From positions 1 to 30,248 of IMG/VR virus record IMGVR_UViG_3300030329_005692: 30,248 bases of DNA, one strand, 5' to 3'. The stretch is from a virus. Positions 4,204 through 30,215 of this stretch are shown here, piece after piece. Both the position numbers and the translations under genes were made by a program. Every line of letters begins with the position of its first letter. Positions within the stretch are counted from its first letter, which is position 1. The notes beneath the pieces were generated by a model that was not told the origin of the DNA, did no database searches, and saw only the letters and a program-made list of their open reading frames with translations.

Positions 4204-6225
4204 TTATCCTGCTTGCTGTTGATATTGATTGGCTCCAGCTTGGTTGCTGTTACCCATCGCCTGCACGGCACCTTCGGTATTCGCGCCCGCTGCGGGCGGT
4301 GCACCAGCGCCGTCTTGTAATAATTTCATAATTTCCGCCTCTTGTCGAGGGTCGGGTGGTGCTTCTTGTGGAAGAAGCTCATCCGTATTCTCGTAACCCA
4401 TGGCATCCAGCATACGCTTGAGCATAGGTCGGGTAAAGGGTCTAAGCTCCGGCGGATAGTTGAAATACCGCTCTTGAACCTGTAAAGCCAGCTGTGATTT
4501 TTCTATCGCCCTTTGGCCTTGGTCCCTTGACAAGATGACTGAGACATTCATGTCGAGATCTTTGACCATTTCCGGAGTCATCGTCCCAAAGTTCTCAACT
4601 TGCCCCTCCATGTAGGTGTATACCTCGGCTTGATCCATGGTTGCCATGGCGACCTTGACCATTTTGGTAAGGTGATCTTCAAAACCCCTTACTATGCGGC
4701 GCATCCACCTACGGCCTATTTTCGAAGCTTCGCGGAGAGTGGCCTCAACGCCAGTAGCCGTGTTCGCGGGCGCGAGTGCTTGATAATCACCCTGAGCCAT
4801 GTTGCTCACGCCAAACCACAGCTGAACCAACCCGAACACAAAGTCTATGTGTCCTTGTGTGTCCCTGTCCATACTAGGCATTTGGGCGAAATTTATGAAA
4901 TCGTCTATCGTATGCTGGTCTTTCAACTCGAATACTTTACCTGCATGAAGCTCCACCTCGTCAGGCTCATCTTCCACGGCATTGGGGTTGACGCCCACTA
5001 TGGGGTTGGCTGCAAGCTCGTTTCTGTAGCTCTGTGAGTTGAACTGTTTGTCGATATACTCTTGGTATGGGAGTATTCTTTCCGGAAGACTAGGACCCCA
5101 CCACCTGTTCTGGTATTTGTTTATAGCGATGGTGCTGTATGGAACCCTATTATCGGGAGTCACTTTAGCTACGTATTCGTAGTATAGTATTTTACGAGTT
5201 TCAGGCTCTAGGAAAACAACTATGTCTTGCGGTGTACCCGTCCCCAAGACATCTCTTTTAATCCAGCACTCCACCACTTGGATAATAGGATTTTCGTCGT
5301 CGTCAAAAGACAGGTTTTCCTTGTAGTCGTCGTTTTTTACGGACTCAGTTCTGGGGTTAGCGTCTTTCTTAACCATGTTCTTGAAATTCTCGAAAGTACA
5401 CCAGTCTCTTTCCAGGAACATGTCTTGAGCCCATCGAAGAGGTTTGTCATAGAGCTCCATTATAGCATCGGCGTTTTCTATGTTTTCCACGTTTGTGGAG
5501 CACAAGAATCTATCTGAATCCACTACAACGGTTCTAGGACCTTTGTACTTAACCTGCTCTGTGGGAACGCCTTCCGGGTAAGGTTTGAATTCATGTAAAC
5601 CGGGCTGCATAACGAAAGAAGGATCGGCTTCCAGCCTAAGCTCCGGATTCCCCGTAAGAGGATCTATGGAGGGAGCGAAAATCGCCTCTCCCTCAACTAT
5701 GGGTCCTATGTCCAACAACTGCTCGAACTCCCCGGTTCCGTTGTTGAAAAGAGCGTTTCTTTCATAGTCCATCCATCGACTGGTGCGCTCTTCGAACACC
5801 GCCTTCATTATGGCGGCTCTCTGTACAAAGATATGGAGATAAGATTCTTCTAATCTCTCCCGAGCTTTTGCCCCTTTTTCGAGCTTCCAGTTAAAGTATT
5901 TATCGTAGGATTCCGCCGTTTTTATATCCGAAGGCCCTTGAGGAGCGAATTTGAAATAAGGACTTGTTCCGGTTATCTCGTCCTCGGCTCGGGCCATGAA
6001 ATGATCCACCACCAAGCTAGTCAAAGGCACGGAAACATTGGAATAATCAAATATGCTGTCGCGTGTGGCTCTGTCCTTGCGGTTATTGTTATATATGGCC
6101 CATCCTAATTTATCAGCGTCTATTCTGTCGGCATTGTCAGCTTTTAACTGCTCCAACCTATCCATTAAATAATCAGTCAGTTTTCTCTCCTGACTTTCCG
6201 TGATTCTAAAATTAGTGGTTCTCAT
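4204..6225 (-). CDS. Portal protein
   Basis: This 673-aa protein is called as the dodecameric portal through which DNA enters and leaves the head. The N-terminal helix region (RKLTDYLMDRLEQLKADNAD) is followed by an alpha/beta body. The segment RWWGPSLPERILPYQEYIDK at about residues 373-392 and the later helical stretch with NMAQGDYQALAPANTATGVE at about 470-490 are typical of large podovirus-type portals, where the 'P....AtGve.t' element precedes the long stem helices. The C-terminus is Gln/Ala/Gly-rich (GNSNQAGANQYQQQAG), probably a flexible barrel tail. The length is in the usual range for large portals. It follows the 1815-aa gene by 2 nt, with a weak ribosome site. It is separated from the large terminase by three giant genes, which is unusual. 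Confidence 0.92.
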   Translation of the reverse strand: MRTTNFRITESQERKLTDYLMDRLEQLKADNADRIDADKLGWAIYNNNRKDRATRDSIFDYSNVSVPLTSLVVDHFMARAEDEITGTSPYFKFAPQGPSDIKTAESYDKYFNWKLEKGAKARERLEESYLHIFVQRAAIMKAVFEERTSRWMDYERNALFNNGTGEFEQLLDIGPIVEGEAIFAPSIDPLTGNPELRLEADPSFVMQPGLHEFKPYPEGVPTEQVKYKGPRTVVVDSDRFLCSTNVENIENADAIMELYDKPLRWAQDMFLERDWCTFENFKNMVKKDANPRTESVKNDDYKENLSFDDDENPIIQVVECWIKRDVLGTGTPQDIVVFLEPETRKILYYEYVAKVTPDNRVPYSTIAINKYQNRWWGPSLPERILPYQEYIDKQFNSQSYRNELAANPIVGVNPNAVEDEPDEVELHAGKVFELKDQHTIDDFINFAQMPSMDRDTQGHIDFVFGLVQLWFGVSNMAQGDYQALAPANTATGVEATLREASKIGRRWMRRIVRGFEDHLTKMVKVAMATMDQAEVYTYMEGQVENFGTMTPEMVKDLDMNVSVILSRDQGQRAIEKSQLALQVQERYFNYPPELRPFTRPMLKRMLDAMGYENTDELLPQEAPPDPRQEAEIMKLLQDGAGAPPAAGANTEGAVQAMGNSNQAGANQYQQQAG

Positions 6226-22769: not shown

Positions 22770-24527
22770 TTATCCTATACGGACCTTGCGGTTTTTCAAC
22801 ACTTCCTTTAGTGGAGCCCGCATGAAACCATCAGGGCACATCAAGCCCGGATTTTTCCTCAACATTCTGTTCGTTATTTTTTTCTTCTTGGGCGTGTGGA
22901 ATTTTGATGCGGAATCTATGTTGTATACGGCAAGCGCCGCCGCCAAAACATGGTCATCATGATGGCCGGGAGCCGCCTCGGGCTTCCCTTTGTCATTAAC
23001 CACGAAAGTCTTGAACTCCTGCATCACCCTTGGGTCGGGTATGTCTATGTTACGCTCCACCAATTCGGTGGCCAGATGATCGATGATAGTCTTTCTCGTA
23101 ATTTTATCCGTGCTCCACCCGAAAGCTTTCTCCACCATACCCGTGGAATCGACGACCTTGCGCCTCTGGTACACGTGAACCCCCTCATCAAGCAGATACC
23201 TTATTATCGCTAGCCCCGAATTGTTTACTTCAGGTATCACGAAAGCCTTGCCATACAGTTTGGAAGCCAAAACCACTTCCTCGGCCAGTATACCTATATC
23301 CACTCTGCTGTGGTGTATAGCCACCATTCTAGGCACGTGCCAGACCCCATGCCAATCCTGATACCCCTGCTTCCACACCTGAACGCTGTGATAATCCGGA
23401 TCCGCGGCCAAGCCCTGTATCTGTTGGTCTTCCCCCGTGCAAGTATCCACGGATATGACATATTTCGAGTCGTGCTGAGGCTCCTCGTACACTCTCCAAT
23501 TCCCGGCATGATCGGGAGTTGCCGAGGTCTCCCCGTTTTTTTGTCCCGACAAGGTGACGGTTTTGTAATGTTGATCTTGAGCGATCTTGTGCATCTCCTC
23601 GGTTATCTGTATCTGGAACCTCGGACGGGACGACAAGAGGAAACATTCGTCAGGATCGGAGGGGTACTCCTGCCTGAACTTGTTTACGTCACCGTTGCAC
23701 TTGTCTCTCAACGTCCGGCGGCGCCATTTCATGTTTTCCCACGTAACGTCGAAACGATCCATCTCCGACTTCTCGTCCTCCGTCAAGGTCTCCTTGAAAT
23801 CCTTTAACTCCCCCTTCGATTTGAAAGGTATGGCGGAGTCCTCGAACTCGAACCACGCGGCGAATATCTTCTCCCATTCGTTATCCTGAACATAAGTCCT
23901 GTAAAACCACCCCTGAGGGCCATTTGGAGTGGAATCCGCAATACACAAGGAAACGCTATCCCCGTCATACAGAGACTGAAGATAACCCAAAGCGGGGTCT
24001 CTTTCCCCTTGCATAGGCCAAAAAGCCACCTCGGTCATGTTTCCGACCTGAATCGTTCCAGATCTACCGGCGTTCTTGGATCCGGCTGTCTCCTTTCCGT
24101 AGACACACCCCGTAACCAAAGTTATAAGGTCAGCCAGATTTCCCTTTTCGTCCACGTTTCCCGCCACGTCGTCCCACGGGAACACGTCCAGATCCGCGAA
24201 CCTCCGAAATATCTCGAACACCTTGTCCGATGTACCCGCAATATCGCCCATCAGACTCCCCGCCAGATCCGTGTATTTTCTCATGTGGTGGTACACCAAA
24301 GCTTGCGCGCAAGTTGAGGCACCCTTCTGACGTGGTTTCAGTATTACCATTTTGCATGACGAACCTTCCAATTGGCATTTTCTGTAATATTCGAACATTC
24401 TCTGCTGAAGAATGTTGGCTTTGGGTTTTATGACCTTTCCCCGCTTGTCCTTGATCATCCCGAAGGTGCTGAACCAGACTTCCGGATCCAATCGTATGAG
24501 ATCCGCTATTTGCTGGTCATCGGTCAT
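22770..24527 (-). CDS. terL: Terminase large subunit (packaging ATPase/nuclease)
   Basis: This is the DNA-packaging motor that cuts concatemers and drives DNA through the portal. The 585-aa length is usual for the family. The N-terminal ATPase domain shows a Walker A-like KPRQKGAST at residues 64-72, a Walker B region IQVGNMTEVAFW with E166, and a coupling motif STPNG at 199-203. The C-terminal RNase H-like nuclease has the three acidic sites: D362 in VISVDTCTG, E434 in VIPEVNNSG, and D525/D526 in GHHDDHVLAAALA. ATG 24527 overlaps the upstream TGA (ATGA). The portal gene lies 16.5 kb downstream, beyond three giant genes, not next to it as in most phages. Confidence 0.97.
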   Translation of the reverse strand: MTDDQQIADLIRLDPEVWFSTFGMIKDKRGKVIKPKANILQQRMFEYYRKCQLEGSSCKMVILKPRQKGASTCAQALVYHHMRKYTDLAGSLMGDIAGTSDKVFEIFRRFADLDVFPWDDVAGNVDEKGNLADLITLVTGCVYGKETAGSKNAGRSGTIQVGNMTEVAFWPMQGERDPALGYLQSLYDGDSVSLCIADSTPNGPQGWFYRTYVQDNEWEKIFAAWFEFEDSAIPFKSKGELKDFKETLTEDEKSEMDRFDVTWENMKWRRRTLRDKCNGDVNKFRQEYPSDPDECFLLSSRPRFQIQITEEMHKIAQDQHYKTVTLSGQKNGETSATPDHAGNWRVYEEPQHDSKYVISVDTCTGEDQQIQGLAADPDYHSVQVWKQGYQDWHGVWHVPRMVAIHHSRVDIGILAEEVVLASKLYGKAFVIPEVNNSGLAIIRYLLDEGVHVYQRRKVVDSTGMVEKAFGWSTDKITRKTIIDHLATELVERNIDIPDPRVMQEFKTFVVNDKGKPEAAPGHHDDHVLAAALAVYNIDSASKFHTPKKKKITNRMLRKNPGLMCPDGFMRAPLKEVLKNRKVRIG

Positions 24528-25666
24528 TTCTTTAGATTAAACACTTTTCCAGGCCACGAGGGCTCCACCTCATACTCCACGTCCAGCGGTTCGATTGCTT
24601 TTATCGTACCCACGTCGGATTTAAGGTTTTCGGGTATCTTCTCCGAATAATAGAAACCGTCATCCTTTTTGGATATGCCATACCCCATAACGGCGTCCGA
24701 GGTTTCGGTTTCGTCCCACGACTTGTGCTTACGGCCTTTGAGAATCCTTCCAGTGGAAGGGTCCCGACTACTCCAATGAGCGTTTCCGGGGTGCCGCTTC
24801 ATACCGGATTTTATCGCGGTGCCGTAATCATACCCTTCTCCCTCGGGATCGAAATGGTAATCCTCCTGAACCCACTCCCCCCACGGGCGCCCCTCATCCC
24901 AACGACCATCCTTGAAACTCGCGGGAACATCCTGCCACTTGAAAGTTTTACCCCCTCTCAAAAACACGGGACCTCCTCTAGCCTCTTCGGTAGGCTTGTT
25001 ATAACCTACATACCTGTATTCGGGGCTTTCGGGGTGGGGGAAGTTATAAGACTCTCCCGAAACCAACTCTTCCATCTCATTGATTCTCCCCATTCGAGGG
25101 TTTCCCGGCACTTTCTGTATGTTCGCCCCGAAACGGTAAGGTACCAGCATACCACCAGCATAAGAAGGGCCCTTATCCCCGAAAGCTCGGTAATCTGGTA
25201 TTGATTCCACCGTATACTCAGGCGCAGGAGGCGAACCTTCAGGGCGGTAGGTTCCGCGAAACCTGTTGTTTCTAAAATCTTCGGCGGCGGACACCAATCT
25301 TTTTTTGGCATTGTCCAACACCTGATCCATATAAAGCTTCGATGTAAAATCCTTACGATTGGGGTGTTCGCGATCAAGATGACCAAGCATAAGATCTTGA
25401 AGCCGGCCCTGCGCCGCCGCTTGCTCGATTGCTTCAGGCAACCCTATTCTATATGCGTCCTGTTGTAAATTGAACGCATTATATCGGTCCAGCTCCTCTC
25501 TCCACGCAGCTTCGGCAGCTTCGCTGGCGGGTATGTCGTCATAGTCGTATTTTGGGTACTTGGGCCTTTTAACTTCGGGTAAAGGAGGATACAAAGGAAC
25601 GCCCTTGTCATGCATATCGGCCAATACCCTGAGCATTGGCTCTAAATCGACGTTTCGGGGCTTCAT
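24524..25666 (-). CDS. 380-aa protein of unknown function between lysin and terminase
   Basis: I recognise no family. The gene is joined at both ends by 4-nt ATGA overlaps, to the cell-wall hydrolase upstream and to terL downstream. The protein has a Pro/Tyr/Lys-rich N-terminal segment (PEVKRPKYPKYDYDDIPASE), a helical middle (LDNAKKRLVSAAEDFRNNRF), then a Gly/Pro/aromatic-rich C-terminal half with many Trp, Tyr and charged residues (GRWDEGRPWGEWVQEDYHFD). No membrane helix, signal peptide or clear catalytic motif is visible. Its place immediately before terL might suggest a packaging or virion role. That rests on context only. Confidence 0.82.
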   Translation of the reverse strand: MKPRNVDLEPMLRVLADMHDKGVPLYPPLPEVKRPKYPKYDYDDIPASEAAEAAWREELDRYNAFNLQQDAYRIGLPEAIEQAAAQGRLQDLMLGHLDREHPNRKDFTSKLYMDQVLDNAKKRLVSAAEDFRNNRFRGTYRPEGSPPAPEYTVESIPDYRAFGDKGPSYAGGMLVPYRFGANIQKVPGNPRMGRINEMEELVSGESYNFPHPESPEYRYVGYNKPTEEARGGPVFLRGGKTFKWQDVPASFKDGRWDEGRPWGEWVQEDYHFDPEGEGYDYGTAIKSGMKRHPGNAHWSSRDPSTGRILKGRKHKSWDETETSDAVMGYGISKKDDGFYYSEKIPENLKSDVGTIKAIEPLDVEYEVEPSWPGKVFNLKK

Positions 25667-26325
25667 CTCACGTATCTATCTCTTCCCGTGTTGAAACCGG
25701 AGGGGGGTCGGGTTTTGTCTTTGTAAAAGTGATGGGCTCCCAGGACACCCTGCAACTCAACGTCTTTGTTCTTAGACCAATGGCTTTTGGGTATCTTCCC
25801 GGTCTTGTACTGCTTAGCCACTTTAACCGGATTCAAGTAATGATCGGCATCTATGAGATCACCCGTGGAATCATATACATAAGGAGCACCCCCATCCCCA
25901 TCCATGAATCTACCGGCAATCTCATACGCTTCGTCAAAAACGGCATTGCCTGTGTTCGGTTTCAATTTCTCGAGAGCTTTATATATTTTCTTCTCGTCCG
26001 GCGTCTTATTTCTCCATACGGAGAATTGATCGGGCTGTTTTATCACATCTGTGTAATTAGAAGGGTAATTAGTGTCCTCCTTTCGGTTTCTCAGCACATT
26101 GGCCACCGCCTCCATGCCTTCCGGACCCTCACCCCTAGCCTCTCCATACAAGGTTCTGGCGAACAAAAGCCTTCTTTTTTCCCAATTTTCCTTGTCCTGT
26201 TTGACGGCTTCGGGGGTTACGTCCTCCACGTTGTACTCGGGAGCCGCCGCCTTCGCCTTCTCCTGCGCCGCCACCATTGCGGCCGCTCTCTCCATAGGCA
26301 GGATTTCTGTGAAATAATCAGCCAT
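25663..26325 (-). CDS. SleB-like cell-wall hydrolase (Hydrolase_2 type)
   Basis: This 220-aa protein is probably a peptidoglycan-cleaving enzyme used in lysis or in entry. After about 50 helical residues the family signature appears: LFARTLYGEARGEG with the likely catalytic E62, then EAVANVLRNR at 72-81. Later come WRNKTPDE and the closing GAHHFYKDK at 196-204, which matches the 'G.thFy' end of SleB/CwlJ-type hydrolases. No signal peptide or membrane anchor is present, so export would need a holin or delivery in the virion. ATG 26325 overlaps the TGA of the upstream 33-aa gene (TGATG) and its stop overlaps the next gene. Its place inside the packaging/structural operon is compatible with either an endolysin or a virion-associated lysin. 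Confidence 0.88.
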   Translation of the reverse strand: MADYFTEILPMERAAAMVAAQEKAKAAAPEYNVEDVTPEAVKQDKENWEKRRLLFARTLYGEARGEGPEGMEAVANVLRNRKEDTNYPSNYTDVIKQPDQFSVWRNKTPDEKKIYKALEKLKPNTGNAVFDEAYEIAGRFMDGDGGAPYVYDSTGDLIDADHYLNPVKVAKQYKTGKIPKSHWSKNKDVELQGVLGAHHFYKDKTRPPSGFNTGRDRYVR

Positions 26326-26428: not shown

Positions 26429-26629
26429 TTACTCCTCCTCTTCCGGTAGTTTATCCAAAAACTCGGGATCGGCGTCGAATTCGATCACGCCATCACCCAA
26501 AACCTCGTTTATCACCTCCACGACGGACCCAACCATGTCGGTAAGGTCTATATCGGACTCCAATTGCCACCTTAGCAGCATGGAAGTCAAATCGTGCTTG
26601 AATTTAAGCTTCTGTTCCTCTGGATCCAT
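26429..26629 (-). CDS. 66-aa acidic hypothetical protein
   Basis: I recognise no family. The frame is open back to a TTG at 26638, but the ATG at 26629 is preferred because GGAG lies about 10 nt before it and sits too close to the TTG. The 3' end of the upstream gene overlaps it by 26 nt. The protein begins MDPEEQKLKFKHDLTSMLLR and ends in an acidic tail (FLDKLPEEEE), whose codons also form the ribosome site of the next, strongly basic miniprotein. The helical, acidic character could suit a small partner of that basic protein, but this is only suggested by adjacency. Confidence 0.75.
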   Translation of the reverse strand: MDPEEQKLKFKHDLTSMLLRWQLESDIDLTDMVGSVVEVINEVLGDGVIEFDADPEFLDKLPEEEE

Positions 26630-27023
26630 CGCTTTCAATCTCCAATACCTCCGCCATAGGCAGAGATTCAGTGTATGTGTTCATTATTTCACCCAAAGCC
26701 ACCCCGGAACTGCGAACGCGCTTCATTATCTCGTCCGGAGACGCCGCTTTCCGGGTTTTATCGTCCACGGTGATGTCATGACGGGTCGCGGGCTTGCCGA
26801 ATCCGTACTCCAGCATCAATCTTGCGCTCGTCAAACGGGTGGAATGGTCCGGCACCTCCTCATAACGCATACCCCTCTGGTCTTCGAGCGTTGCCCCGCG
26901 GACAATCTGAGTCGCCCCCATGCCATTTCGGAGAACATCCACGGCTTTTTCGAAATCCTGGTCCTCTATGTACTTATGGACGTCCTCTCGAAGCCGTTTG
27001 GGAGTCTGTTTTCGTATCGCCAT
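26604..27023 (-). CDS. 139-aa protein, candidate small terminase subunit
   Basis: The ATG overlaps the upstream TAA (TAATG), so it is likely coupled. The protein starts MAIRKQTPKRLREDVHKYIE. It has a helical N-terminus and a segment RLTSARLMLEYGFGKPATRH at about residues 62-81, then a more acidic C-terminal part. The 'A...lL....GkP' pattern occurs in DNA-binding phage proteins of the small-terminase or related helix-turn-helix type. Location upstream of terL, a size near that of small terminases and a basic N-terminus agree with a role in recognising DNA for packaging. No clear helix-turn-helix could be defined by eye and three genes separate it from terL, so this call is tentative. Confidence 0.75.
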   Translation of the reverse strand: MAIRKQTPKRLREDVHKYIEDQDFEKAVDVLRNGMGATQIVRGATLEDQRGMRYEEVPDHSTRLTSARLMLEYGFGKPATRHDITVDDKTRKAASPDEIMKRVRSSGVALGEIMNTYTESLPMAEVLEIESDGSRGTEA

Positions 27024-27547
27024 TATCGCCTGTAGGCTCTCGATGCGCCATATTTAGGGTTCCCTGTGTAAAATCCAGGTCTTCCGAGCCTTTCCTCCGC
27101 CTTTTTGTTTTTTTCGAAAGTGTCAAAGCTCAAATTGTATCCTTCGGGGAACAAACCAGCGGCTATACCCCTTTCCACCCAATCGGGGTTTTGACCCCCT
27201 GCAAATCTTGCCGCTTGCTGCCCTCTAGCCGCTTGCACGGGGCCTGGAGCATGGCGGGGGAGGTTTATAAGAGGTTTTGCGGGTTGTTGACCCTGATTTC
27301 CGCCTGGTCCAGCGGCCCCGGCGGCCCCGGCAGGGCCATGCATACCGGCTTCGGTGTCGTCCTTTGGCTCGGGTATAGTCACTTGCGGTCGATAAGGATC
27401 TATTCTGGAATCTAGCGGAGCCCATCCTCCGGAATTGGTCATGCCTCCGGCACCGGAGCTTGCGTTAAAGGTCGGTGGCGGCATGTTGGCGGCCAAAGCC
27501 CCCCAGTCAATGTCTTCTGGGAATAGTGGGTTGTATTGTACAGGCAT
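27023..27547 (-). CDS. 174-aa Pro/Gly-rich protein with collagen-like segment
   Basis: ATG 27547 has AAGGA 5 nt upstream and follows the previous gene by 8 nt. The first third is Pro/Asn/Gly-rich (MPVQYNPLFPEDIDWGALAA). The middle has seven Gly-X-Y triplets (GMHGPAGAAGAAGPGGNQGQ), a short collagen-like stretch. The last third is more ordered and basic (GIAAGLFPEGYNLSFDTFEK; FYTGNPKYGASRAYRR). Collagen-like repeats occur in phage virion proteins as trimerising or spacer segments, so a minor structural role is plausible. Seven triplets is short for a stable triple helix, and it may simply be a flexible linker. Confidence 0.8.
   Translation of the reverse strand: MPVQYNPLFPEDIDWGALAANMPPPTFNASSGAGGMTNSGGWAPLDSRIDPYRPQVTIPEPKDDTEAGMHGPAGAAGAAGPGGNQGQQPAKPLINLPRHAPGPVQAARGQQAARFAGGQNPDWVERGIAAGLFPEGYNLSFDTFEKNKKAEERLGRPGFYTGNPKYGASRAYRR
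27284..27346 (-). repeat. Collagen-like Gly-X-Y triplets (7 units)
   Basis: Seven consecutive Gly-X-Y codon triplets are read on the minus strand: GMH, GPA, GAA, GAA, GPG, GNQ, GQQ. The DNA is locally GC-rich because of glycine, alanine and proline codons. Confidence 0.75.
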
Positions 27548-29044: not shown

Positions 29045-29074
29045 CACAAACCTTCGTGAGTAACCCTTAGTGAC
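29045..29074 (-). promoter_or_regulatory. Conserved 30-bp upstream element, copy A
   Basis: Read on the minus strand it is GTCACTAAGGGTTACTCACG followed by AAGGTTTGTG. It matches copy B (30186-30215) at 26 of 30 positions and ends 32 nt before the 162-aa gene. TCACTAAGGG resembles the core of T7-family RNA-polymerase promoters (T3-type TCACTAAAGGG). The part downstream of the GGG is also conserved, so a leader-RNA or protein-binding element is equally possible. Confidence 0.6.
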
Positions 29075-29182: not shown

Positions 29183-29214
29183 GTCGCGTTTCAAATCTTT
29201 GATTTGCCAGCGAC
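29183..29214. repeat. Hairpin 1 of the structured intergenic element
   Basis: Outer arms GTCGC/GCGAC (29183-29187, 29210-29214) and inner arms CAAATC/GATTTG (29192-29197, 29201-29206) enclose a 3-nt loop. It abuts the long fold-back starting at 29215 with no spacer. Confidence 0.7.
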
Positions 29215-29329
29215 CCGCCCACTGCGTGGGGGCACTGGGCTGTGGCTCCAGCTGTCCAGCTTGGCGAGATGATTGCTCCGCAATCAGCATGCCAAGGTGA
29301 TGACAGCGAAGGGCCCAGGCAGTGGGCGG
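29215..29329. ncRNA. Long nested fold-back (36 bp in 115 nt): candidate structured RNA or origin
   Basis: Five perfect helices nest inside one another. They are 29215-29225 with 29319-29329 (11 bp), 29235-29240 with 29313-29318 (6 bp), 29251-29256 with 29302-29307 (6 bp), 29260-29265 with 29291-29296 (6 bp), and 29270-29276 with 29280-29286 (7 bp), closing a 3-nt loop. Internal loops are small (9/0, 10/5, 3/5, 4/4). No gene covers this DNA. The frames open here on the minus strand run into the terminator and have no ribosome site. So much pairing in so short a span is unlikely by chance. It could be a non-coding RNA (either strand), a replication or packaging site, or an mRNA-leader structure for the 162-aa gene. 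The sequence does not decide which. Confidence 0.55.
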
Positions 29330-29414: not shown

Positions 29415-29449
29415 AAAAAAACCCACACCCGAACGAGTCGAGTGTGGGT
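29415..29449 (-). terminator. Rho-independent terminator of the 206-aa gene
   Basis: On the minus strand ACCCACAC (29449-29442) pairs with GTGTGGGT (29428-29421) around a loop that can pair further (CG...CG), followed at once by a run of seven Ts. It starts 25 nt after the stop of the 206-aa gene, as expected for the end of that transcript. Confidence 0.9.
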
Positions 29450-29474
29450 CTTTAAGTTTAAGTTGAGGGTTAGA

Positions 29475-30185: not shown

Positions 30186-30215
30186 CACAAACCTCCGTGT
30201 GTAACCCTCAGTAAC
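30186..30215 (-). promoter_or_regulatory. Conserved 30-bp upstream element, copy B
   Basis: Minus-strand reading is GTTACTGAGGGTTACACACG followed by GAGGTTTGTG. It lies 90 nt upstream of the 206-aa start, and 26 of 30 positions match copy A. Beyond the element the two flanks diverge quickly, which marks the conserved part as functional, not a large duplication. Confidence 0.6.

Follow-up and report, generated by a model that had tools for sequence, protein, structure and literature searches.

What kind of element lies at positions 29183-29329 of this phage DNA, where a gene-free stretch folds back on itself? The window analysed here is a virus record of 30,248 bases with its main genes on the minus strand, a 30-kb fragment of a marine phage whose relatives have large records of ∼53-71 kb. 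The group appears to be marine, since Roseobacter-type and Vibrio hosts are those of the phages with the best annotated related TerL proteins. A first-pass annotation described five helices nested into one 115-nt structure and a two-part hairpin touching it directly, both with 3-nt terminal loops. All five helices (11, 6, 6, 6, and 7 bp, 36 bp in total), the abutting hairpin and both loops were recovered, and the structure does lie where described, with the terminator of the 206-aa gene on one side and the motif preceding the 162-aa gene on the other (Table 1).

Table 1. Positions of the elements of the fold and of the surrounding features in the window
Feature	Position	Strand	Remark
Portal	4204-6225	-	
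TerL	22770-24527	-	
Endolysin	25663-26325	-	
TerS	26604-27023	-	Putative name, from adjacency to TerL and conservation in relatives
Promoter-like repeat motif AGGGTTACNCACGNAGGTTTGTG before 162-aa gene	29045-29067	-	Second copy 30186-30208, before 206-aa gene
Abutting two-part hairpin, loop AAA	29183..29214	-	No relative found
115-nt nested hairpin, element proper	29215..29329	-	From folding and core descriptor
11-bp helix	29215-29225/29319-29329		
6-bp helix	29235-29240/29313-29318		
6-bp helix	29251-29256/29302-29307		
6-bp helix	29260-29265/29291-29296		
7-bp helix	29270-29276/29280-29286		Loop 29277-29279
Outer stem, 5' arm CCGCCCACTGC	29319..29329	-	
Outer stem, 3' arm GCAGTGGGCGG	29215..29225	-	
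Shared core, 5' half GGCCCUUCGCUGUC	29302..29315	-	
Shared core, 3' half GACAGCUGGAGCC	29244..29256	-	
Long terminal arm, two helices and GGA loop	29260..29296	-	Short helix with 4-nt loop here in relatives
Rho-independent terminator of 206-aa gene	29417-29453	-	

Nowhere else in the window are folding energies as low as in the 147-nt stretch 29183-29329. Folded as RNA it gave a minimum free energy of -82.2 kcal/mol on the plus strand (shuffled sequences, -57.8 ± 4.4; z = -5.6) and of -75.1 on the minus strand (z = -6.3), values reached by 0 of 200 shuffles on either strand; with DNA folding parameters the z-score was -5.1. The second-strongest fold of the window, at 27176-27425 on the plus strand, is antisense to a glycine-rich collagen-like gene (27023-27547, minus strand) and is probably a by-product of its coding sequence. 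The many strong antisense folds found upstream of terS in relatives likewise seem to arise as by-products of genes rich in glycine codons.

Two GTG-start open reading frames of 119 and 113 aa span the region on the minus strand. Because neither had a Pfam match even at an E-value of 1, and because they start within the tail of the terminator of the 206-aa gene, we judged the stretch to be non-coding, as originally proposed. The 115-nt hairpin is not itself a rho-independent terminator, as no T tract directly follows it and the gene strand continues with GTCGCTGG. An Rfam covariance-model search found no match at the gathering score and nothing near that score at an E-value of 5, in keeping with the first-pass annotation, which could name no known RNA family of this shape; a likeness to the HDV ribozyme, spotted by eye on the plus strand, was dropped for want of Rfam support. 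A single-sequence covariance model (R1) run over 55 sources recovered only the window copy and its palindromic partner, and a DNA similarity search of 50,697 phage records gave no match.

The neighborhood has further repeated sequences. The 23-nt promoter-like motif occurs in two copies in the window, only before the 206- and 162-aa genes, and in 0 of 100 shuffles; neither this motif nor the 206-aa protein had relatives in the viral contigs searched. The octamer RCTATCAY is present seven times on the gene strand (23083, 28208, 28744, 29105, 29349, 29876, and 30218, all minus) and 0 times on the other. Across 23 loci of the group it occurs 109 times on the gene strand (16 expected) and once on the other (18 expected), both in and between genes and sometimes in terminator loops. 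Its antisense form contains TGA and TAG, which may explain the avoidance but not the excess.

Searches with TerL returned 80 viral loci at 70-75% identity, and searches with TerS returned a further set, the nearest being L127 at 82%. Many of these relatives have a terminator several hundred nucleotides upstream of terS followed by a non-coding stretch, which often folds well and contains a TTGAC-type promoter-like sequence; in some it carries long perfect hairpins. On the gene strand the hairpins share a core, CC(N)UUCGC-helix...helix-GCUGG-N1-2-GCC, with a variable terminal helix between its halves and a long outer stem enclosing it. This core, with a perfect outer stem of 11-17 bp, was found in the window, L044/L132, L048/L078/L161, L027/L138/L149/L160, L144, and L150/L151. 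L043/L159 share the core and are true members, although cut off in the 5' arm. The sequence of the outer stem differs wholly between the hairpins of the family yet remains paired.

With membership defined as a core enclosed by an outer stem of 11 bp or more, the window copy belongs to the family, and it has CCCTTCGCTGTC and GACAGCTGG in common with L044, in the same order and the same fold. The window has a single occurrence of the strict core (the counting script reports it twice owing to an optional base), compared with 0 in 1000 Markov copies of the window, although the motif was recognized by eye with the window in view and the test was thus not blind. When the phage loci were scanned for the core plus outer stem, only this variable-stem family matched, other core matches being stemless. 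Pattern hits in L082 (inside a 669-aa reading frame) and L084 lack the outer stem and look like chance. The 42 pattern matches in cellular genomes are about what we estimate chance to give for that pattern. The window copy was missed by a covariance model (R3) from whose building the window had been left out; this counts only weakly against membership, because the terminal arm of the window copy is ∼28 nt longer than that of the model's sequences. No relative aligns around the window copy and its own empty site was not found, so that its membership is argued from core and fold only. We conclude that the 115-nt fold is probably a diverged member of an undescribed family of variable-stem hairpins. 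No counterpart of the abutting hairpin was found among the relatives.

Other structures occur upstream of terS in the group. A second hairpin type, in the same region as the variable-stem hairpin, or type A (L061:4704-4771, L015:1528-1595, and L011:1700-1758), has stems of 14-21 bp and a conserved loop, CATATRTCTC...CCTGAAG. A conserved promoter-leader region (L028:1486-1640, L060:488-642, L047:5215-5369, and others) has 17 predicted pairs, four of them with changes on both sides.

In the relatives the hairpin is present or absent as a unit. It is present in one copy per record in G003, G014, G015, and the window, and in none of 22 other records. Compared with L055, L044 has ∼108 extra nt in the form of a clean insertion, with flanks 76-81% identical on both sides; L027 has ∼106 extra nt relative to L070, again as a clean insertion between matching flanks. 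Two insertion sites were seen, one before the promoter-like sequence (L027, L048, and L144) and one after it (L044). In most carriers the unit lies just after a terminator and before the next promoter, upstream of terS. The sequence TAGATG flanks both sides in L044 only, and no consistent target duplication was seen. On the TerL tree the hairpin is patchy (11 of 48 rows), supported branches forcing at least six changes. L078 has the hairpin and L066 lacks it at nearly identical TerL; here homology is lost within the spacer, indicating that the spacer was exchanged in its entirety. In a separate case, L067:2440-2640, ∼110 nt bounded on each side by a copy of a ∼28-nt sequence (GGTCACGAGCAAGCTCGCTCCATTGA) resemble, as read by eye, an insertion with a long target duplication.

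From these observations we tentatively interpret the fold as belonging, in diverged form, to a small family of palindromic DNA elements in this phage group, and we favor such a dispensable DNA element over an origin, a packaging site or a gene-strand RNA. Each unit is ∼80-115 bp long and has a constant core enclosed by a long outer stem, which is nearly perfect although its sequence changes freely. Gain and loss would occur at the level of DNA, probably by way of a hairpin, single-stranded or cruciform, that is recognized at the core. The spacer would tolerate the unit since transcription from upstream has stopped before it and the next promoter is located past it, and the phage would not need it for replication or packaging. 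MITEs and the REP-type palindromes of bacteria are similarly short, non-coding and gained or lost as units in spacers. Unlike those mobile palindromes, which occur in multiple copies, the present unit occurs once per record and does not multiply within a genome; no terminal repeats were found, nor any transposase or recombinase tied to the hairpin. A mobile element would also be expected to keep its stem between copies, whereas here the stem changes completely and the core stays. It further counts against our interpretation that no empty site was found for the window copy, the corresponding place in the nearest relative, L127, being occupied by different genes and different palindromes.

The choice between DNA and RNA turns on the pairs themselves. 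In an alignment of 15 pairs (10 outer, 5 inner) drawn from five distinct hairpins, with rows joined from the helix arms by hand, 98.7% of cells were paired and 12 of the 15 pairs had changed on both sides. This was far above shuffled and slid controls, 0 of 500 shuffles scoring as high, so that the compensatory change looked for in relatives was found for the 115-nt part of the structure. Such covariation around an invariant unpaired core is what would be shown by a structured phage RNA kept for its shape and core, be it a small RNA, a leader element or an RNase III-type processing site. Such an RNA is a possible but doubtful explanation; if optional and changing fast, it could act in host interference or in counter-defence. 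Long stems are the kind cut by RNase III, and in L044 a promoter-like sequence, TTGACA/TATCGT, is seen by eye upstream of the hairpin, which would then be transcribed. However, template switching at palindromes in DNA can keep them perfect and yield compensatory changes without selection for RNA, and covariation is therefore not decisive. G-U pairs are nearly absent from the gene strand of the hairpins of both types (3 of 258), compared with 41 of 276, or 15%, in the adjoining terminators of the same loci (Fisher P = 1e-9). The terminators thus show the wobble expected of RNA and the hairpins on the gene strand do not, which favors DNA. On the antisense strand the count rises to 14 of 282 (terminators, 4 of 234), and an antisense RNA may exist. 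Position also argues against a gene-strand RNA or leader: in L027, L048, and L144 the hairpin follows a terminator and precedes the next promoter-like sequence, and beside the window hairpin no promoter-like match was found on the gene strand. The non-coding RNA and leader put forward by the first-pass annotation are weakened accordingly if read from the gene strand, and the lack of an Rfam match also counts against an RNA.

Known phage RNAs and promoters offer partial likenesses. The RNase III processing sites of T7 are also long helices between genes, but most units in this group follow a terminator. The virion RNA polymerase of N4 uses hairpin promoters, which the terminal TGATTGC-GGA-GCAATCA of the window resembles in its 7-bp stem and 3-nt loop, whereas the hairpins of the relatives have 4-nt loops. 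A PDB sequence search with the window's two largest proteins (2491 and 1815 aa) gave no polymerase match, although distant homology is possible and part of the genome is missing; a T7-type RNA polymerase had no match in seven relatives, but neither did the control. The cabRNA of staphylococcal phages is transcribed from within terS/terL and binds a CBASS cyclase, and its sequence is not conserved between phages (PMC10686824). It is likewise a phage hairpin tied to the terminase region, but the window hairpin is part of a spacer, 2.2 kb upstream of terS, and is not known to be transcribed. Searches of the literature for a phage RNA of this kind or for a hairpin upstream of terS gave nothing that matched.

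A cis-acting DNA site of the lytic cycle, such as a replication start, a concatemer-resolution site or a packaging site near terS, is improbable. The hairpin of the relatives does lie a few hundred nucleotides upstream of terS, and the commonest starting point of the group's contigs is 450-600 nt upstream of that gene (13 of those tallied), which could mark a physical end. Contigs also break at a plain terminator (G001), however, and hairpins can cause such breaks as artefacts of assembly; in G009 the sequence runs unbroken through the region, with its two ends side by side elsewhere, and ten large records had no direct terminal repeats. The window hairpin lies 2.2 kb from terS. The hairpin is missing from most relatives, including one with an almost identical TerL, and being so optional it is unlikely to be needed for replication or packaging; the origin and packaging site proposed earlier are not supported as stated. 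The packaging RNA of phi29 is a structured phage element of similar size, but an RNA of that kind, being needed for packaging, would be kept by all members, whereas most relatives lack the present element, and the window phage has both terminase subunits. What stands of the initial list of candidates (non-coding RNA, origin, packaging RNA or site, leader) is a non-coding structure kept beyond one phage, not the candidates as given.

The stretch could instead be a mere hairpin-rich spacer between cargo genes, each with its own promoter and terminator, its likeness to the relatives' hairpins being chance. L127 fills a similar spacer with unrelated GC-rich tandem palindromes (z = -5.4) in the order terminator, palindromes, RCTATCAY octamer, and repeated motif before genes. 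This order resembles that of the window and keeps the explanation alive, as does the failure of the independent covariance model; both look like cargo-gene cassettes that carry a promoter and terminator of their own. The sequences, order and fold shared with L044 and the absence of the strict core from the Markov copies make mere chance unlikely. The tandem GC-rich palindrome repeats of L127 are at 1212-1289 and 2375-2485 of that locus.

A palindromic DNA element of this kind would add an undescribed element to a marine phage group without a close match among the phage records searched. More speculatively, and with less likelihood, the hairpins may form a new class of phage hairpin in which close relatives differ in both arms while the core is fixed. 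They would then be either a nucleic acid that evolves fast and serves counter-defence or triggers a sensor, or a palindrome that some unknown enzyme moves in the form of single-stranded DNA. Strong covariation is by itself not proof of RNA, and the combination of rewritten stems with a fixed core separates two questions: whether pairing or sequence is selected, and whether the element acts as DNA or as RNA.
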